NCBI RefSeq assembly: GCF_030142075.1
Contig: NZ_CP126241.1
Coordinates: forward strand, 2,666,001-2,730,000
DNA: 64,000 nucleotides
Source: Arthrobacter sp. zg-Y20
GTDB taxonomy: Bacteria; Actinomycetota; Actinomycetes; Actinomycetales; Micrococcaceae
Direction of reading: 5' to 3'
Part shown: one piece after another, positions 41,877 to 46,960 of the stretch
Numbering within the stretch: the stretch's first letter is position 1
How the letters are laid out: each line of letters opens with the position of its first letter
Notes under the pieces: generated by a model
What the model was told of the DNA's origin: nothing
What the model saw: only the letters and a program-made list of their open reading frames with translations
Database searches by the model: none
Program-made: the position numbers and the translations under genes

Positions 41877-42845
41877 TCAGCGGCCCTGCCCGCGTTGCTG
41901 CTGCTTCCGCCCGCCACGGCCGCGGCTCGCCGGCAGCGCAGATCCGAGCTGCTCGGGGAGAGCATAAACGAGGCACATGAGGATGTCCTGGAGCGTGGAA
42001 GATGCAATCGCCTCAAGCGCCGTGCCGCCCCCGGGCAGTGACTGTGCAGCCCATATGCCGGCCCCGGCAGCGCTGATCCAGGTGAATCCCTGCCCCGAGG
42101 ACTGGTCGGCCAGGGTCCATTCCGTCCAGTCCGTTTCCAGCATGTCCCGGATCTCTGCGCCGGCTCCCTCCGGGGACGGCAACCGGAAACCGTTCAGCCG
42201 GTCCTCATACTCCCGCGCGTCAAGAACCAGGACCTGATGCCCTCCCGGTGCGGCGGCGGATCCGGGCCCTGCGTGCGGTGACGCGGCCCGGCGGGCCAGT
42301 ACAGGTGTCAGGCTGCCCAACGGCAGCAGGGACAGCTGCTCGTTTCCGCTGGACGCGCGGGGCCCGGAGAGCAAATCCGGTCCCGTGAGCACGTCGGTTC
42401 CCGTAAGCAGCAGTGCCTCGCGTTCTCCGGTCCAGATGTCCAGCCTGGTGCTGCTGCCATAATTGCGGCTGCACAGTGCCAGCCTTCTATCGGCCCGTCG
42501 CCAGGGCCCGGCCAGGCGGTGTCCCCGGGCGGTGAGGAAAGCATCTGCAGTCAGCAGGTCCGCGTCCTGCAGTTCGGCCACCGCAGCCGGCTGTAGCCTC
42601 CGACGACGCCGTTCCAAGGCCGCGCGCGAAACCATGGCCGCCAGTAACTCCAGCGCCGATGCTGAAAGCATGAAACTGTCCAGCGCTTCCGGGAGTGTCC
42701 CCTGAGCGGGAGCGGGTGCGGGAAAGGGCCCAGCCGGCTGTGTGCGGACGATACTGTGCCGGGCGGTACTGTGCCGGGCGATACTGTGCCGGGCGGTACT
42801 GTGCAGGGCACTAATTTCCCCGGTGGTGCGGCCGTATACCGGCAT
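41877..42845 (-). CDS. EspG-like type VII secretion-associated protein with repeat-bearing N-terminus
   Basis: 322 aa. Residues about 60-300 align by eye with the C-terminal half of the protein at 43409-44821 (LLTADAFLTARGHRLAGPW, SLLPLGSLTPVLARRAA, DWTEWTLADQSS) and have the general pattern of ESX chaperones of the EspG family. EspG proteins bind newly made ESX substrates in the cytoplasm. The N-terminus carries four copies of ARHS(T/I) encoded by a DNA repeat. ATG 42845 has AGGGGG 8 nt upstream. The family call is an inference from pattern and context. Own promoter at 42877-42926. Confidence 0.6.
   Translation of the reverse strand: MPVYGRTTGEISALHSTARHSIARHSTARHSIVRTQPAGPFPAPAPAQGTLPEALDSFMLSASALELLAAMVSRAALERRRRRLQPAAVAELQDADLLTADAFLTARGHRLAGPWRRADRRLALCSRNYGSSTRLDIWTGEREALLLTGTDVLTGPDLLSGPRASSGNEQLSLLPLGSLTPVLARRAASPHAGPGSAAAPGGHQVLVLDAREYEDRLNGFRLPSPEGAGAEIRDMLETDWTEWTLADQSSGQGFTWISAAGAGIWAAQSLPGGGTALEAIASSTLQDILMCLVYALPEQLGSALPASRGRGGRKQQQRGQGR
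42750..42809. repeat. Four 15-bp tandem repeats inside the EspG-like gene
   Basis: Four head-to-tail 15-bp units, alternately starting GATACTGTGCC and GGTACTGTGCC, form two 30-bp higher-order units. They encode the ARHSTARHSI-type stretch at the N-terminus of the EspG-like protein. Being in-frame multiples, copy changes would lengthen or shorten the protein without frameshift. Confidence 0.9.
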
Positions 42846-42876
42846 TGTTGCTGCCCCCTGATTGACGTGTGGTTCC

Positions 42877-42926
42877 AACGTACGGGCGGAGGCAAAAACC
42901 GTCGATGGGTAGAACTACCCATCGAC
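42877..42926 (-). promoter_or_regulatory. Promoter and 26-bp palindromic operator of the EspG-like gene
   Basis: A perfect dyad with 12-bp arms GTCGATGGGTAG separated by AA lies at 42901-42926. A candidate -10 TACGTT is at 42882-42877, so the dyad centre is 36.5 bp from the near edge of the -10, overlapping the -35 position. The same core and spacing occur at 47025-47072. The plus-strand STAS-like gene begins 148 bp beyond the dyad, so it could also be affected. Confidence 0.75.
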
Positions 42927-43073
42927 TACCTGCCCCGCACCGTGCACCATGAAGCCCAACGGCAAATACGCAGGCCCGGCGGCCAGTTAACCGCCCCTTG
43001 TATTGCGCCGTCCCAGACCGTTCTCCTAGGTTGGGACCCCAAGCTTCCGCCGCCCGCAAGAAAAGGACCTGCC

Positions 43074-43376
43074 GTGGACCCCAAGCTCCGTGTGGCCATC
43101 CGGCTCGACCTCGATCTCCAGCAGGCACGGCTGGTGGTGCACGGGCGGGTCACTGACCAGAACTGCAGGGTGCTGTACGTGCTGGCGCGCCGAGCCAACG
43201 CCACCCTTCCGGGCCTCAACGTAGTCCTGGACCTGCGCCGGGCCGTTGTCACCGAGAGCGCCATGGCCGGCCTGACCCGCAGCTCCGAAACGGGCGAACT
43301 GCCGGTGCTGACGGGGCGGCCGGAGACGGAGGCACTTGCACCTCGGCAGCTGAGCATCCTGGCTCCGGCGGCTTAG
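43074..43376 (+). CDS. Small STAS-like hypothetical protein
   Basis: 100 aa. Alternating hydrophobic strands (LRVAIRLDLDLQQARLVVHGRV) and NVVLDLRRAVVTESAM look like an anti-sigma-antagonist-type STAS fold, but no phosphorylatable DS(S/T)G motif is seen, so the assignment is tentative. GTG start with AAAGGA 7 nt upstream. It is encoded opposite to, and between, the two EspG-like genes. The longer open frame upstream through the tandem repeats is not credible coding sequence. Confidence 0.6.
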   Translation: MDPKLRVAIRLDLDLQQARLVVHGRVTDQNCRVLYVLARRANATLPGLNVVLDLRRAVVTESAMAGLTRSSETGELPVLTGRPETEALAPRQLSILAPAA

Positions 43377-43408
43377 CCCTCCGGACGCCTCCAGCCTTCC
43401 GCCACTGC

Positions 43409-44821
43409 TCAGCGGGTGGGCGCCCCGTTCCCCGGGCGGTGGACAATGTCCTCGTGGGATCGGGCGTGCAGCCATGCGGAAGGGACATCCGCACCGAGAT
43501 CCAGCGGTGCTCCCGTTGCTGCAGTATGAACCGTTCTGGCGATGGCATCCCAGACCAGGGAGGACGGCTGCGCATCCAGCCGGATACCGCCGTCGGCCGG
43601 GATCACCGAGTAGTGGCCTGCCTCGCCGGCATGAAGCCAGCGGAAGCCGGCATTGGCCTCGATATGGGTAATGTCCCAGCTCGTCCACTGGGCGGCCCAC
43701 AATCGGTGCTCCGCTTCCCCGGCGTTGGGGGCAGGGACAGACGAGGAAGCTACCCTCGCGTGGAACACTCCTTCGCTCACGACAAGCGGATCATGCCGCA
43801 TGGCCCATGCCGGAGCCACGCCGGCCCATGATGCCAGGACCAACGGCAGAAGGGCGGGGGGAAGTATACGGACTTCGCGTTCCCCGGGCCCATAAGCCGG
43901 CTCGGAGGACGGACCGAAGAACGACGGACCGGCGACCAACAAGGCCAGTCCTTCACCAATCCATACGTCTGCCGCTGTTTCCTCGTTACCGCGCCGGGCT
44001 GTAAGGGACAGCCTGGCGGTGGGATCGGTGAGCGGATAGAGGCAGGCAGCACCGTTCTCCGTGATAACCCCCTCGGCGGTCAGCAGCCCGGCCTCCACCA
44101 GTTCGGCCGCTGCAGACCGGTTGCCGGCAAGATCAAACCGGCCCAGTTTCTTCCGTCCTTGAAGGCTCTGCAGGAGGTCGGCGGCAGCAGTGGTCAACAG
44201 CCACCCCTCCGGTTGGTAAGGCTGTTCAGCGCTGACCCGGGTGAGGTCCTCGAGAGAGGTTCCACGCTGCTCCGAGGCGAAAACGTCGGGACGGGGATCC
44301 CTGTCCCGGTCCAGCTCCGCTCCGTCCGGAATCCGGTTACTGCCGTGGCCGGTGATTGTCAGTTGGTCAACCAGGTATTCGATGAGGGTCTTTTGTCCGG
44401 TGTGGTCCTCCAGGGCATAGCTGCCGGTCGCTTCGACCAGGCCCGCGCCGAGCACCCAGATCCACCGGTCCACGCATACGGTTTGGCCTTCTCCCTGATA
44501 GACGAAACGCTGCCTTCGTCCGGGGACGGCCCGCCCCAGCGACGGGTCAAAAACTTTGGGCCATTCGTCCACGGACAGAACGTGGAGTGCGGCGAACTGA
44601 GCCATGGTGGCGGCAAGCCCCGTGGTGGCCACCCATTCCAGCGGATGGCCATCGTTCCGCCCGATGCGAATCACAAGGTTGGGGCGGAAATGGCCCTCCG
44701 GTACCGGTGGGTGCGCCAGTACCCAGGTGTCATCGGGGCCTTCCTCCTGCACCCAGCCCGGAGGAAGGGCAGCGTTCACCCCGCGAAAGCTGACCGGAGA
44801 AAAACCTGAAAACAGTTCCAA
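43409..44821 (-). CDS. LpqN-like domain fused to an EspG-like domain
   Basis: 470 aa. Residues 15-160 (ALPPGWVQEEGPDDTWVLAHP, FRPNLVIRI, SYALEDHTGQKTLIEYLVDQL) fit the LpqN/DUF1795 fold. Residues about 195-450 resemble the EspG-like protein at 41877 (LLTAEGVITENGAACLYPL, ILPPALLPLVLASWAG, WTSWDITHIEANAGFRWLHAG). A cytoplasmic chaperone or adaptor for the neighbouring ESX substrates is the best guess. TTG start at 44821 with AGGGG 8 nt upstream; GTG at 44779 is an alternative. I know no described protein with this fusion. Confidence 0.65.
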   Translation of the reverse strand: MELFSGFSPVSFRGVNAALPPGWVQEEGPDDTWVLAHPPVPEGHFRPNLVIRIGRNDGHPLEWVATTGLAATMAQFAALHVLSVDEWPKVFDPSLGRAVPGRRQRFVYQGEGQTVCVDRWIWVLGAGLVEATGSYALEDHTGQKTLIEYLVDQLTITGHGSNRIPDGAELDRDRDPRPDVFASEQRGTSLEDLTRVSAEQPYQPEGWLLTTAAADLLQSLQGRKKLGRFDLAGNRSAAAELVEAGLLTAEGVITENGAACLYPLTDPTARLSLTARRGNEETAADVWIGEGLALLVAGPSFFGPSSEPAYGPGEREVRILPPALLPLVLASWAGVAPAWAMRHDPLVVSEGVFHARVASSSVPAPNAGEAEHRLWAAQWTSWDITHIEANAGFRWLHAGEAGHYSVIPADGGIRLDAQPSSLVWDAIARTVHTAATGAPLDLGADVPSAWLHARSHEDIVHRPGNGAPTR

Positions 44822-44882
44822 TGGGTGTGCCCCTATAGTTGTCGACGAATAAAGCCGGCGCGCCGGTAAGCGGATCAGGCGT

Positions 44883-45296
44883 TCACTCAGCGCTTACGGA
44901 TCCGGCTTGGATTTCCTTCCGCCGCTTCCGATCGGCCTGCCGCGCCCGTTTTCGCTCGGCATTTTCTTCCCGGATAAACCGGGGCTTGAGGAAATTCGGC
45001 ATCCAGAAACCACCAATCACCCCCACGACACCGCTACCAAGAATCACAAAGGCGACGACAAGCTCGACAAATTCATTCAGGTTGGCTGTATCGACCATGT
45101 CCCAAAACGGGATGAGGATGAAAAAAAGTCCAATGTAGGTGGACGCCAGCGCAGGCTCACCACTCGAAAAGCTGTTCAGACCCGCCCTGAACGCCAGGAA
45201 ACGACCGTTATAGACCAAGAGCCCAACCACCATCAGAAACCCGCCGAAGGGCAGGGAAAAAATCGCAAGGAAAAGGTCCTGTTTCAAGGGGATCAC
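44883..45296 (-). CDS. Small membrane protein, candidate immunity protein
   Basis: 137 aa with three or four hydrophobic segments (FLAIFSLPFGGFLMVVGLLV, LASTYIGLFFILIPFW, LVVAFVILGSGVVGVIGGF) and a highly basic cytoplasmic tail (RKRARQADRKRRK). It lies immediately behind a glycine-zipper ESX effector candidate, the usual place of a membrane immunity protein. Base composition is low for this genome (two rows counted gave 53% and 48% GC), a sign of recent acquisition. GTG start at 45296 is uncertain because no clear Shine-Dalgarno precedes it. Confidence 0.7.
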   Translation of the reverse strand: MIPLKQDLFLAIFSLPFGGFLMVVGLLVYNGRFLAFRAGLNSFSSGEPALASTYIGLFFILIPFWDMVDTANLNEFVELVVAFVILGSGVVGVIGGFWMPNFLKPRFIREENAERKRARQADRKRRKEIQAGSVSAE

Positions 45297-45369
45297 CTAT
45301 CTGTGTCTGTGGGCTCTTGCGGCACACGCTGGAATGCGGCGCAGAATTGGAAGATACCCCAGGTCCGGG

Positions 45370-46590
45370 TCATCGTCCGAATACGCTCTTGAACATAGCT
45401 GCGCCGGCCTTGCCAATGGCACCCTCCACAGCCTCCTTGGCATCACTGGCCAGCTCTTTGGCCTTGGCGGCTGCCTTCACAACCGTTTCGTTCTCGGTAA
45501 CGGAATTCCAGACGTCCCGGGCTTTGTCACCTGCCGCCTGTGTCAAGCTACGGCCACCAAAGATATCCAACTCGGTGTCCACCGCCCATGAAATGGCCAT
45601 GCCAACGCCAAAGCCCACTACGGTCCCCACCGGGCCGCCGATCATCGTACCGACTGCGGCACCCGCATAGCCTGCACCCAGACCCGCGACCACACTCGTC
45701 CCGGCACGGAAAATGGCTTTCTCATTCGCCTGCCCTTCAATGTCCGCCTCCGACATCCCGGGATTTGCTTCCCGCAACCGGTTAATCTCGTCCTGGCGTT
45801 CATTACCGAAAGTTAGCAGGCCCCCGCCAACCACCATCACGGGACCGGCTGCACGCGCCGCCTTGCTGATCTTCGTGGCATCACGGAATTCATCTGGAAC
45901 CACCGCCCACTTGTCCGGGTTCGCATCCACGTATCTTGCGTAGCGCTGCGAGGCGTTATACAGCTTTTCGTTGACCTCGGGCCGGAGATCGTAGTAGTTG
46001 CGGGGGCCTGCAGCCGAGTGTGCACCCCGGGATTTCGCGCCGCCGCGCAACGTATCAACCGTATTAAGGATGAATCCACCGTTTTCAGTCGACGCGAAGG
46101 AGAAGAGCGGATTGGTTTCCCCCGTGGCCTCGGAAAGGGCCTGAACGCATTCCTGTTCCAGTTGGAGGATTTCGGCGGCAAGGGTGTTGACCCGGCCCTG
46201 GAGCAGATCGCCCGCGGCACGCATCTGCGGTGCGTCTTCCTCGGTGCAGGCTGCGCTGTTGACGAAAGCATTATGGCCGGCGATATCGGCCCACAGGACA
46301 GCCCGCGCTCCTTCCAACGCGGCAATGCCGTCGGCAAACGCCTCCAAGGCCCTTGCGGCCTGCACCGAAACAGCACTGACGAAGTTGCCGTGCGGCGTGA
46401 TGTCGGAGAACACGCCGTACACCTGGTCGGCCTCAGGGGCAATATACGCAGTCTGCAAACCATTCCATGTCGCCGAGACATCCAGGATGGCGTTTTCAAG
46501 CTGCGGGCCGGCATCTGAGAGTCCCCTGGCCCCGGCTTGCAGGTGCGCCGGCGAGGGCCAGCCGGACAAGCCTGTTGTGTCGATGGCCAT
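45370..46590 (-). CDS. Candidate ESX (type VII) effector with WxG-type head and glycine-zipper tail
   Basis: 406 aa. The first about 150 residues are helical, with GWPSPAHLQAG and a WNG (W42-G44) hairpin motif like WXG100/LXG heads. The middle is variable. The C-terminal part has a hydrophobic glycine-rich stretch (247-261) and a glycine zipper (about 297-336, GLGAGYAGAAVGTMIGGPVG), then a Lys/Ala helix. Glycine-zipper regions in known LXG toxins insert in membranes. The ATG at 46590 follows the small ESX partner's stop by one base, so it is translationally coupled. A resident membrane role rather than a toxin is not excluded. Confidence 0.72.
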   Translation of the reverse strand: MAIDTTGLSGWPSPAHLQAGARGLSDAGPQLENAILDVSATWNGLQTAYIAPEADQVYGVFSDITPHGNFVSAVSVQAARALEAFADGIAALEGARAVLWADIAGHNAFVNSAACTEEDAPQMRAAGDLLQGRVNTLAAEILQLEQECVQALSEATGETNPLFSFASTENGGFILNTVDTLRGGAKSRGAHSAAGPRNYYDLRPEVNEKLYNASQRYARYVDANPDKWAVVPDEFRDATKISKAARAAGPVMVVGGGLLTFGNERQDEINRLREANPGMSEADIEGQANEKAIFRAGTSVVAGLGAGYAGAAVGTMIGGPVGTVVGFGVGMAISWAVDTELDIFGGRSLTQAAGDKARDVWNSVTENETVVKAAAKAKELASDAKEAVEGAIGKAGAAMFKSVFGR

Positions 46591-46591
46591 G

Positions 46592-46960
46592 TCAGGACAC
46601 CGCCGAAACGCTGCGGGCACCCGAGGCTGCCGGGTCGTGATCCAGTTGCGGTACCTGGTTCACGCTCCGCCGGCCCGATTCGGCCATGTCCATGTCGCCC
46701 TGGATGTATGCGCTGACCGCTTGCCCCACACCGTCCACGGCATTTTCCACACGGGCAGCCGCGAATTGTCCCTGCTGGGAAAGCATTTCGCCCACTTCGA
46801 TAAGCGCTGCTGCCACGGCAGCGCTCCCACAACTGTTAGCGGCGTCATCGTAGGCGACGTCGACCGCTCTGATTGCATTCCAAATGCCTTCGTCATCACG
46901 CGCCCTCGCCAATATCCCCGAGCACGTAGCAACATCTATGCTGTAACCGTTCAGACCCAT
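46592..46960 (-). CDS. Small helical ESX-substrate-like protein with YxxxD motif
   Basis: 122 aa. Two predicted amphipathic helices, then AYIQGDMDMAESGRR, where Y85-D89 forms the YxxxD/E type VII secretion signal in the usual place after the second helix. Resembles the DUF6507 / EspC-like group of actinobacterial small proteins. It probably pairs with the effector encoded next (one-base gap) to form the secreted heterodimer. Preceded by the palindromic promoter at 47025-47072. Confidence 0.72.
   Translation of the reverse strand: MGLNGYSIDVATCSGILARARDDEGIWNAIRAVDVAYDDAANSCGSAAVAAALIEVGEMLSQQGQFAAARVENAVDGVGQAVSAYIQGDMDMAESGRRSVNQVPQLDHDPAASGARSVSAVS

Follow-up and report, generated by a model that had tools for sequence, protein, structure and literature searches.

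Introduction

Eag chaperones hold the transmembrane (TM) segments of type VI secretion system (T6SS) effectors by mimicking helix packing (PMC7773334), and in Staphylococcus aureus the glycine zipper of the type VII secretion system (T7SS) toxin EsxX is held before export by a soluble ExiA-ExiB pair, with the membrane proteins ExiCD, which also occur as orphans, protecting against the toxin from outside (PMC12744356). EspG-fold chaperones, found in several T7SS types, bind the tip of the PE-PPE bundle (PMC11217815), clusters of the TelD type have two partners, then the toxin, membrane immunity and a globular protein (PMC9600955), and PsbP/MOG1-like proteins encoded beside T6SS toxins were already proposed as adaptors by Zhang et al. 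(PMC3482391). Here we analyze a gene at positions 43409-44821, on the minus strand, of a 64,000-nucleotide stretch of the Arthrobacter sp. zg-Y20 genome (contig NZ_CP126241.1; the whole stretch is called the window below), whose product is predicted to join a Mog1/PsbP fold of the Eag kind to an EspG fold in one polypeptide. The host is a soil-type actinobacterium. On balance, we favor the reading that this fused protein acts in the cytoplasm as a dual chaperone/antitoxin, its client being an antibacterial, membrane-inserting effector that the T7SS exports and whose gene lies two genes upstream.

Predicted folds of the fused protein

Standard annotation sees neither the LpqN nor the EspG resemblance of this protein, because no Pfam or NCBIfam model matches it or its relatives. 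A Protein Data Bank (PDB) sequence search with the single fused protein likewise found no convincing match, so that family names cannot be assigned by sequence. The predicted structure is more informative. An AlphaFold2 (AF2) model of the 470-residue protein, built from a 49-row alignment of fused, EspG-part-only and Mog1-part-only relatives, reaches a mean predicted local distance difference test score (pLDDT) of 90.6 and a predicted template modeling score of 0.89, with low certainty only in the linker at residues 161-167 and in the last 20 residues. Searched against the PDB with Foldseek and VIA-align, it drew matches that split into two groups. Residues 2-160 take the Mog1/PsbP fold, matching 3lyd (Z 15.9), PsbP (14.7), EagT6 (13.7), SciW (13.3), LpqN (6e5d; 13.2, with a root-mean-square deviation (rmsd) of 2.8 over 139 residues), MTC28 (13.1) and DcrB (12.7). 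Residues 204-442 match EspG structures over 206-218 residues in VIA-align (EspG3 and EspG1 Z 10.9, EspG5 9.8), with Foldseek E values of 3e-6 to 2e-4.

Profile comparisons add a little to this. The C domain aligned by hhalign with 26 EspG (PF14011) rows gives E 5e-5 and a probability of 67% in one direction and E 0.0019 and 14% in the other, which is suggestive only. The N-domain profile reaches 3lyd by sequence (hmmsearch E 0.0068), and 3lyd recurred in a further search. PDB sequence matches of that profile to MazF3 (E 0.004-0.006) were set aside as chance, since they cover a short stretch and are lost with the full profile; MazF3 is also missing among the listed fold matches of the N domain. 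DUF5085/GyrI-like proteins are not among the fold matches listed for the fused protein, which is no evidence against a relation to ExiAB.

An earlier note on this DNA, made from the letters alone, had described the N-terminal 160 residues as LpqN/DUF1795-like and the remainder as EspG-like, and had proposed comparing a predicted structure with those of LpqN and EspG. Both folds were recovered in that comparison, and the EspG likeness held. The first description stood for the fold and failed for the sequence: PF10738 has no match in the genome, and the Pfam model for DUF1795/DcrB none in any family member scanned. PF14011 is also without a match, in the genome at E<=1 and among the 24 and 21 family members scanned. 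We regard the Mog1/PsbP-fold and EspG-fold assignments as firm predictions of the model; the corresponding sequence-family memberships were not found. By the same model the N domain is LpqN-like in fold only, LpqN being one of many members of the fold and not the nearest. Its best structural match, 3LYD, is an uncharacterised protein of Jonesia denitrificans that differs in standing alone.

The Eag chaperones (DUF1795; EagT6, SciW) are better comparators for the N domain than LpqN, and here the earlier note needs refining. They share its fold, they too have no signal peptide, and their genes likewise adjoin that of an effector with a glycine-rich membrane segment. The protein described here nevertheless differs in its T7 rather than T6 setting (marked by the motor protein EccC), in being joined to an EspG-fold domain and in lacking a DUF1795/DcrB match, and whereas Eag partners are effectors with N-terminal prePAAR TM segments, the putative partner here has a T7SS-type head and a zipper near its C-terminus. 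The C domain invites a parallel comparison with the EspG proteins of mycobacterial ESX systems (PF14011), which have the same fold, are cytoplasmic and are encoded beside a PE/PPE pair that resembles the small partner and long-helix protein of our locus. Unlike them, our protein has no PF14011 match, is fused to or paired with a Mog1-fold domain, accompanies zipper effectors only and is encoded away from the ESX locus.

Fused and split forms

About half of the loci encode the Mog1-fold and EspG-fold parts as two genes, which often overlap, and the rest as a single fused gene; the relatives placed on our tree comprise 27 fused proteins and 22 encoded as separate genes. Where separate, the Mog1-fold gene immediately precedes the EspG-fold gene, and in several loci the ends overlap or abut (for example L034, L042, L047 and L048). 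The fused or split state changed at least twice on starred branches and four times on the best tree, and one split pair (L107) nests within the fused clade that contains the window gene. That the unfused parts adjoin, and often overlap, in about half of the loci makes it probable that they function together. The earlier note had suggested looking for the fusion in other actinobacteria, and it is present in other Micrococcaceae and, at locus L142, in another family.

Could the N domain be a general envelope or lipid-binding protein of the LpqN/MTC28 type (PF10738), incidentally fused to an EspG-like protein and unrelated to the neighboring effector? LpqN and MTC28 have the same Mog1/PsbP fold (Z 13.1-13.2), but they are a secreted lipoprotein or secreted protein, whereas our protein is predicted to be cytoplasmic: neither it nor any relative inspected has a hydrophobic signal peptide or a lipobox, in agreement with the earlier reading that a signal peptide is lacking, and it has no PF10738 match. 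Moreover, when unfused, the Mog1-fold and EspG-fold genes still adjoin, beside a zipper effector. We consider this reading very improbable.

The TTG start of the fused protein coincides with the ATG of close homologues, and the plus strand at the same positions encodes no protein. Genome-wide, the fused protein finds only itself and the EspG-like paralogue encoded nearby in the window (Table 1), whose likeness to the C-terminal part had been noticed earlier and is borne out. This paralogue sits on a long branch (2.09), has no Mog1-fold partner and carries a 15-bp tandem repeat (42741-42809) in the 5' part of its gene, encoding a repetitive N-terminus; it is probably a decaying duplicate.

Two further arrangements deserve mention. 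At L097 (7509-9308, minus strand), the small membrane protein, the Mog1-fold part and the EspG-fold part lie in a single 599-codon open frame. We did not rely on this triple fusion, which is seen in one genome, has an internal ATG matching the usual start and may be either a true fusion or a lost stop codon. Stand-alone Mog1-fold genes of another actinobacterial family (L145, L146, L147 and L149) have no detected EspG-fold neighbor, and at L145 a helical pair of T7SS-substrate type is encoded about 1.5 kb from the Mog1-fold gene.

A conserved cassette

The chaperone belongs to a five-part cassette that runs, on one strand, from a DUF6507 gene through the effector, a small membrane protein and the Mog1-fold part to the EspG-fold part; about 40 loci, spread over nine or more genera of the Micrococcaceae, keep this order. 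In the window the fused chaperone gene comes last (Table 1). Similar orders occur in other families: L142 has the fused form, L143 and L144 have the effector, the membrane protein and a split pair, with DUF6507 not detected, and L148 has the DUF6507, effector, membrane protein and Mog1-fold genes and, next to them, a short gene that may or may not be EspG-like.

The head of the predicted effector is confident in AF2 (pLDDT mostly 83-98), has an invariant W at its first turn and fits EsxB with an rmsd of 1.7 Å over 81 residues, with PPE4, PPE15 and PPE41 at Z 9.6-10.1. BAR domains match at equal Z, which makes the fold match unspecific by itself; we treated them as a generic long-helix match, outweighed by the fit to EsxB, which covers the whole chain, and by W42 at the turn. 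Toward the C-terminus lies the glycine zipper, with G310, G314 and G326 invariant in 38 sequences and an overlapping GxxxGxxxG in the C-terminal part of 40 of the 41 cassette effectors. Membership of the LXG family is unsupported, there being no Pfam match. The DUF6507 proteins have a motif of the Y/F-x-x-x-D type and, in the alignment, a near-invariant D89 within AYxxGDxxMA, and are probable partners of the effector head. Almost every cassette encodes a protein with two or three TM segments, of which L092, L093, L097, L123 and L124 have additional copies; it is a probable immunity protein.

Among described systems, EsxX-LapX-ExiAB-ExiCD of S. aureus (T7SSb) resembles the cassette, as we predict its parts, in its small helical partners, its toxin with a long-helix head and a glycine zipper, its soluble two-part zipper binder and its membrane immunity proteins with orphan copies. 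The binders differ, since ExiAB are DUF5085 (GyrI-like) proteins and ours have the Mog1 and EspG folds, as do the phylum and the T7SS type. TspA/TsaI and TelD/TipD, the LXG membrane toxins with DUF443 immunity, share the predicted arrangement of partner, toxin, membrane immunity and globular accessory protein, but their accessory protein is DUF4176 rather than a Mog1/EspG pair and their head is of the LXG family.

Some features of the cassette's surroundings are recorded here as side observations. One genome (G015) has three complete cassettes, one split and two fused, within about 20 kb (L095 and L096; G015:C2:469000-498000). Across 41877-46960 of the window, the host codon bias of the cassette genes is weak compared with that of their neighbors. 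In many genomes the cassette lies near groES/groEL and a siderophore-type ABC transporter, a possible insertion site.

Association with glycine-zipper effectors

Which part of the effector does the chaperone follow? In 64 head-bearing loci within the genus, it adjoins 23/23 glycine-zipper effectors and 0/41 non-zipper effectors with the same head, and neither the Mog1-fold nor the EspG-fold domain was found anywhere in the stretch examined around those 41. The chaperone gene was seen within the locus stretch in 22 of the 23 cases and located by coordinates in the last, where the stretch ended early; the miss listed for L095 17473 in our association table is such a locus-end artefact, the fused gene being at G015:C2:488208. 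Clustering at 50% identity yields 7 zipper and 17 non-zipper clusters, none of them mixed. DUF6507, by comparison, is encoded upstream of most zipper and most non-zipper effectors. Taken together, these counts indicate that DUF6507 follows the head, whereas the chaperone and the membrane protein follow the zipper. The earlier note had missed this restriction of the entire chaperone to effectors with a glycine zipper.

The tails that follow the shared head are a glycine zipper, an alpha/beta hydrolase (PF06259), a weak Tox-REase-5 match or unnamed. Since the non-zipper effectors carry alpha/beta-hydrolase or weakly REase-like C-termini, the head would be an LXG-like carrier. A search with the head profile gave 80 matches in 21 of the 29 genomes of the genus, and the proteins that share this head are an LXG-like effector family of Micrococcaceae. 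The window's genome encodes three more of them (G000:C1 near 684688, 1197885 and 2161823; L181, L141 and L182), two with Abhydrolase_8 and the third, in the ESX locus, 1107 residues long with an unnamed tail.

We also compared evolutionary distances among 31 complete cassettes, in one exploratory analysis of partial correlations. The values are 0.45 for DUF6507 and head, 0.43 for the Mog1-fold and EspG-fold domains, 0.35 for membrane protein and zipper, 0.34 for EspG-fold domain and head, 0.16 for EspG-fold domain and zipper, and 0.01 for Mog1-fold domain and head. The four highest values agree with the pairings that we propose below.

These results bear on a simpler role, pure cytoplasmic immunity, in which both domains would form an antitoxin that sequesters the zipper, as ExiA and ExiB do, with no part in export targeting, and the EspG likeness would be one of fold only. 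The chaperone does follow the zipper rather than the trafficking head, the Mog1 fold also occurs in T6SS immunity proteins (Tsi3 and Tli4/TplEi are among the fold matches), and EsxX offers the precedent of a soluble heterodimer that binds a zipper. Yet the EspG-fold domain co-varies more strongly with the head than with the zipper, and proteins of the EspG fold studied to date act as T7SS chaperones (PMC11217815). We judge pure immunity unlikely, though it has to be weighed seriously.

Linkage to type VII secretion

Across 245 genomes of the family, the chaperone is present in 33 and EccC in 59, and all 33 chaperone genomes are among those with EccC (hypergeometric P 5e-25, uncorrected for the relatedness of the genomes). 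The window's own genome encodes EccC, EccD and WXG100 proteins at about 1.187 Mb; next come a DUF6507 gene and the gene for the 1107-residue protein with the head of the window's effector. A weak match of this ESX-locus effector to Rhabdo_ncap fell below the cut-off and was ignored. In the same ESX locus (L141:910-3434), two near-copies of a small-gene pair, one of WXG100 type, flank a minus-strand gene and adjoin the DUF6507 gene.

Export could be dispensed with if the effector, the membrane protein and the chaperone stayed together as an assembly inside the cell or in its membrane, such as a membrane depolarizer triggered by stress or phage and held in check by the fused protein. The cassette's position away from the ESX locus and the one genome in which membrane protein and chaperone domains share an open frame would fit such an assembly. 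It is hard to reconcile with the presence of EccC in every chaperone genome, with a WXG/PPE-like head and a YxxxD-type partner that recur together inside the ESX locus, and with the re-use of the head on enzyme-type effectors; we consider it improbable. Much of this evidence, along with the lack of a signal peptide and the adjoining or overlapping genes of the two domains, supports a role for the LpqN-like fold in the cytoplasmic handling of ESX substrates, as suggested earlier; export itself we infer.

Table 1. Features of the cassette and of the neighboring paralogue in the window
Feature	Positions	Strand	Details and basis
Fused Mog1/PsbP-fold and EspG-fold protein	43409..44821	minus	470 residues, TTG start; open reading frame, AF2, fold matches
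N domain (residues 1-160), predicted Mog1/PsbP/DcrB fold (Eag-/LpqN-like), no signal peptide	44342..44821	minus	VIA-align; stand-alone gene in about half of relatives
C domain (residues 172-442), predicted EspG fold	43496..44308	minus	VIA-align, Foldseek, hhalign
Small membrane protein	44883..45296	minus	137 residues, 3 predicted TM segments; conserved between effector and N domain
Predicted T7SS effector	45370..46590	minus	406 residues from ATG 46590; alignment, motifs, AF2, fold search
Effector glycine zipper, tandem GxxxG (residues ~305-338)	45577..45678	minus	Alignment and motifs
Effector three-helix trafficking head (residues 1-157), W42 at turn (TWNGL)	46120..46590	minus	AF2, fold match
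DUF6507 protein, Y/FxxxD-type motif	46592..46960	minus	122 residues; PF20117 E 2e-12
Stand-alone EspG-like paralogue of the C domain	41877..42878 (41877-42845 in the earlier note)	minus	30% identity, E 2e-16

Discussion

The reading that we favor, a cytoplasmic dual chaperone/antitoxin for an exported zipper toxin, can be laid out as a series of steps, in which we infer the binding events, the toxicity and the immunity role. The DUF6507 protein would pair with the effector's WXG/PPE-like head, contributing the YxxxD export motif. The EspG-fold domain would engage the head of this pair, and the Mog1/PsbP-fold domain would mask the glycine zipper, much as Eag does for T6SS TM segments and ExiB for the EsxX zipper; both roles are assigned by analogy with the Eag, ExiAB and EspG precedents, and the gene association with the zipper (23/23 versus 0/41) is compatible with masking. 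The complex might then dock at the EccC motor of ESX type, whose gene lies in another part of the genome; there the chaperone would be stripped off and the effector exported, and the small membrane protein would shield sister cells from the exported toxin. Why join two chaperone domains in one polypeptide? Fusion would fix their stoichiometry at 1:1. The more specific proposal, that one bifunctional polypeptide combines a T6-style masking fold (Eag/Mog1) with a T7-style EspG targeting fold and thereby couples the hiding of a zipper toxin to ESX-type delivery, strikes us as evenly poised.

Several observations weigh against this scheme. The zipper, the membrane protein and the chaperone are carried by only 7 sequence clusters and could owe their co-occurrence to shared ancestry alone; inheritance from a single ancestral cassette could account for some of the association with the zipper. 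The main difficulty is that non-zipper effectors with the shared head have no EspG-fold gene beside them, so that here the EspG-fold domain is no chaperone of such heads in general and may instead act on the zipper, as part of a clamp. The partial correlation between the Mog1-fold domain and the zipper is weak (0.16), the zipper-bearing tail of the effector is of low confidence in AF2, and the cassette lies far from the ESX locus in the window's genome.

As a T7SS effector-chaperone-immunity cassette, the locus is of a known type; its chaperone architecture is not described in the literature searched, a partial coverage in which neither a combination of Mog1, LpqN, DcrB or Eag with EspG or type VII secretion nor any mention of DUF6507 was found. 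The Mog1/PsbP fold, whose role in secretion is known from T6 chaperones, here adjoins or fuses with the EspG fold of T7 systems. If our reading is correct, this protein would, to our knowledge, be without precedent as a Mog1-fold chaperone in type VII secretion, suggesting that the same fold keeps membrane-inserting effectors soluble before export in unrelated machines. It would also define an antibacterial, LXG-like class of polymorphic effectors, partnered by DUF6507, for actinobacterial T7SSs outside mycobacteria. The literature searched yielded no described substrates of Arthrobacter-like ESX-type systems, and our results point to a system of carrier head and DUF6507 that serves diverse effectors in these bacteria. 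Because the EspG-fold proteins of this family accompany zipper effectors only, the family may offer a natural test of what EspG folds recognize.
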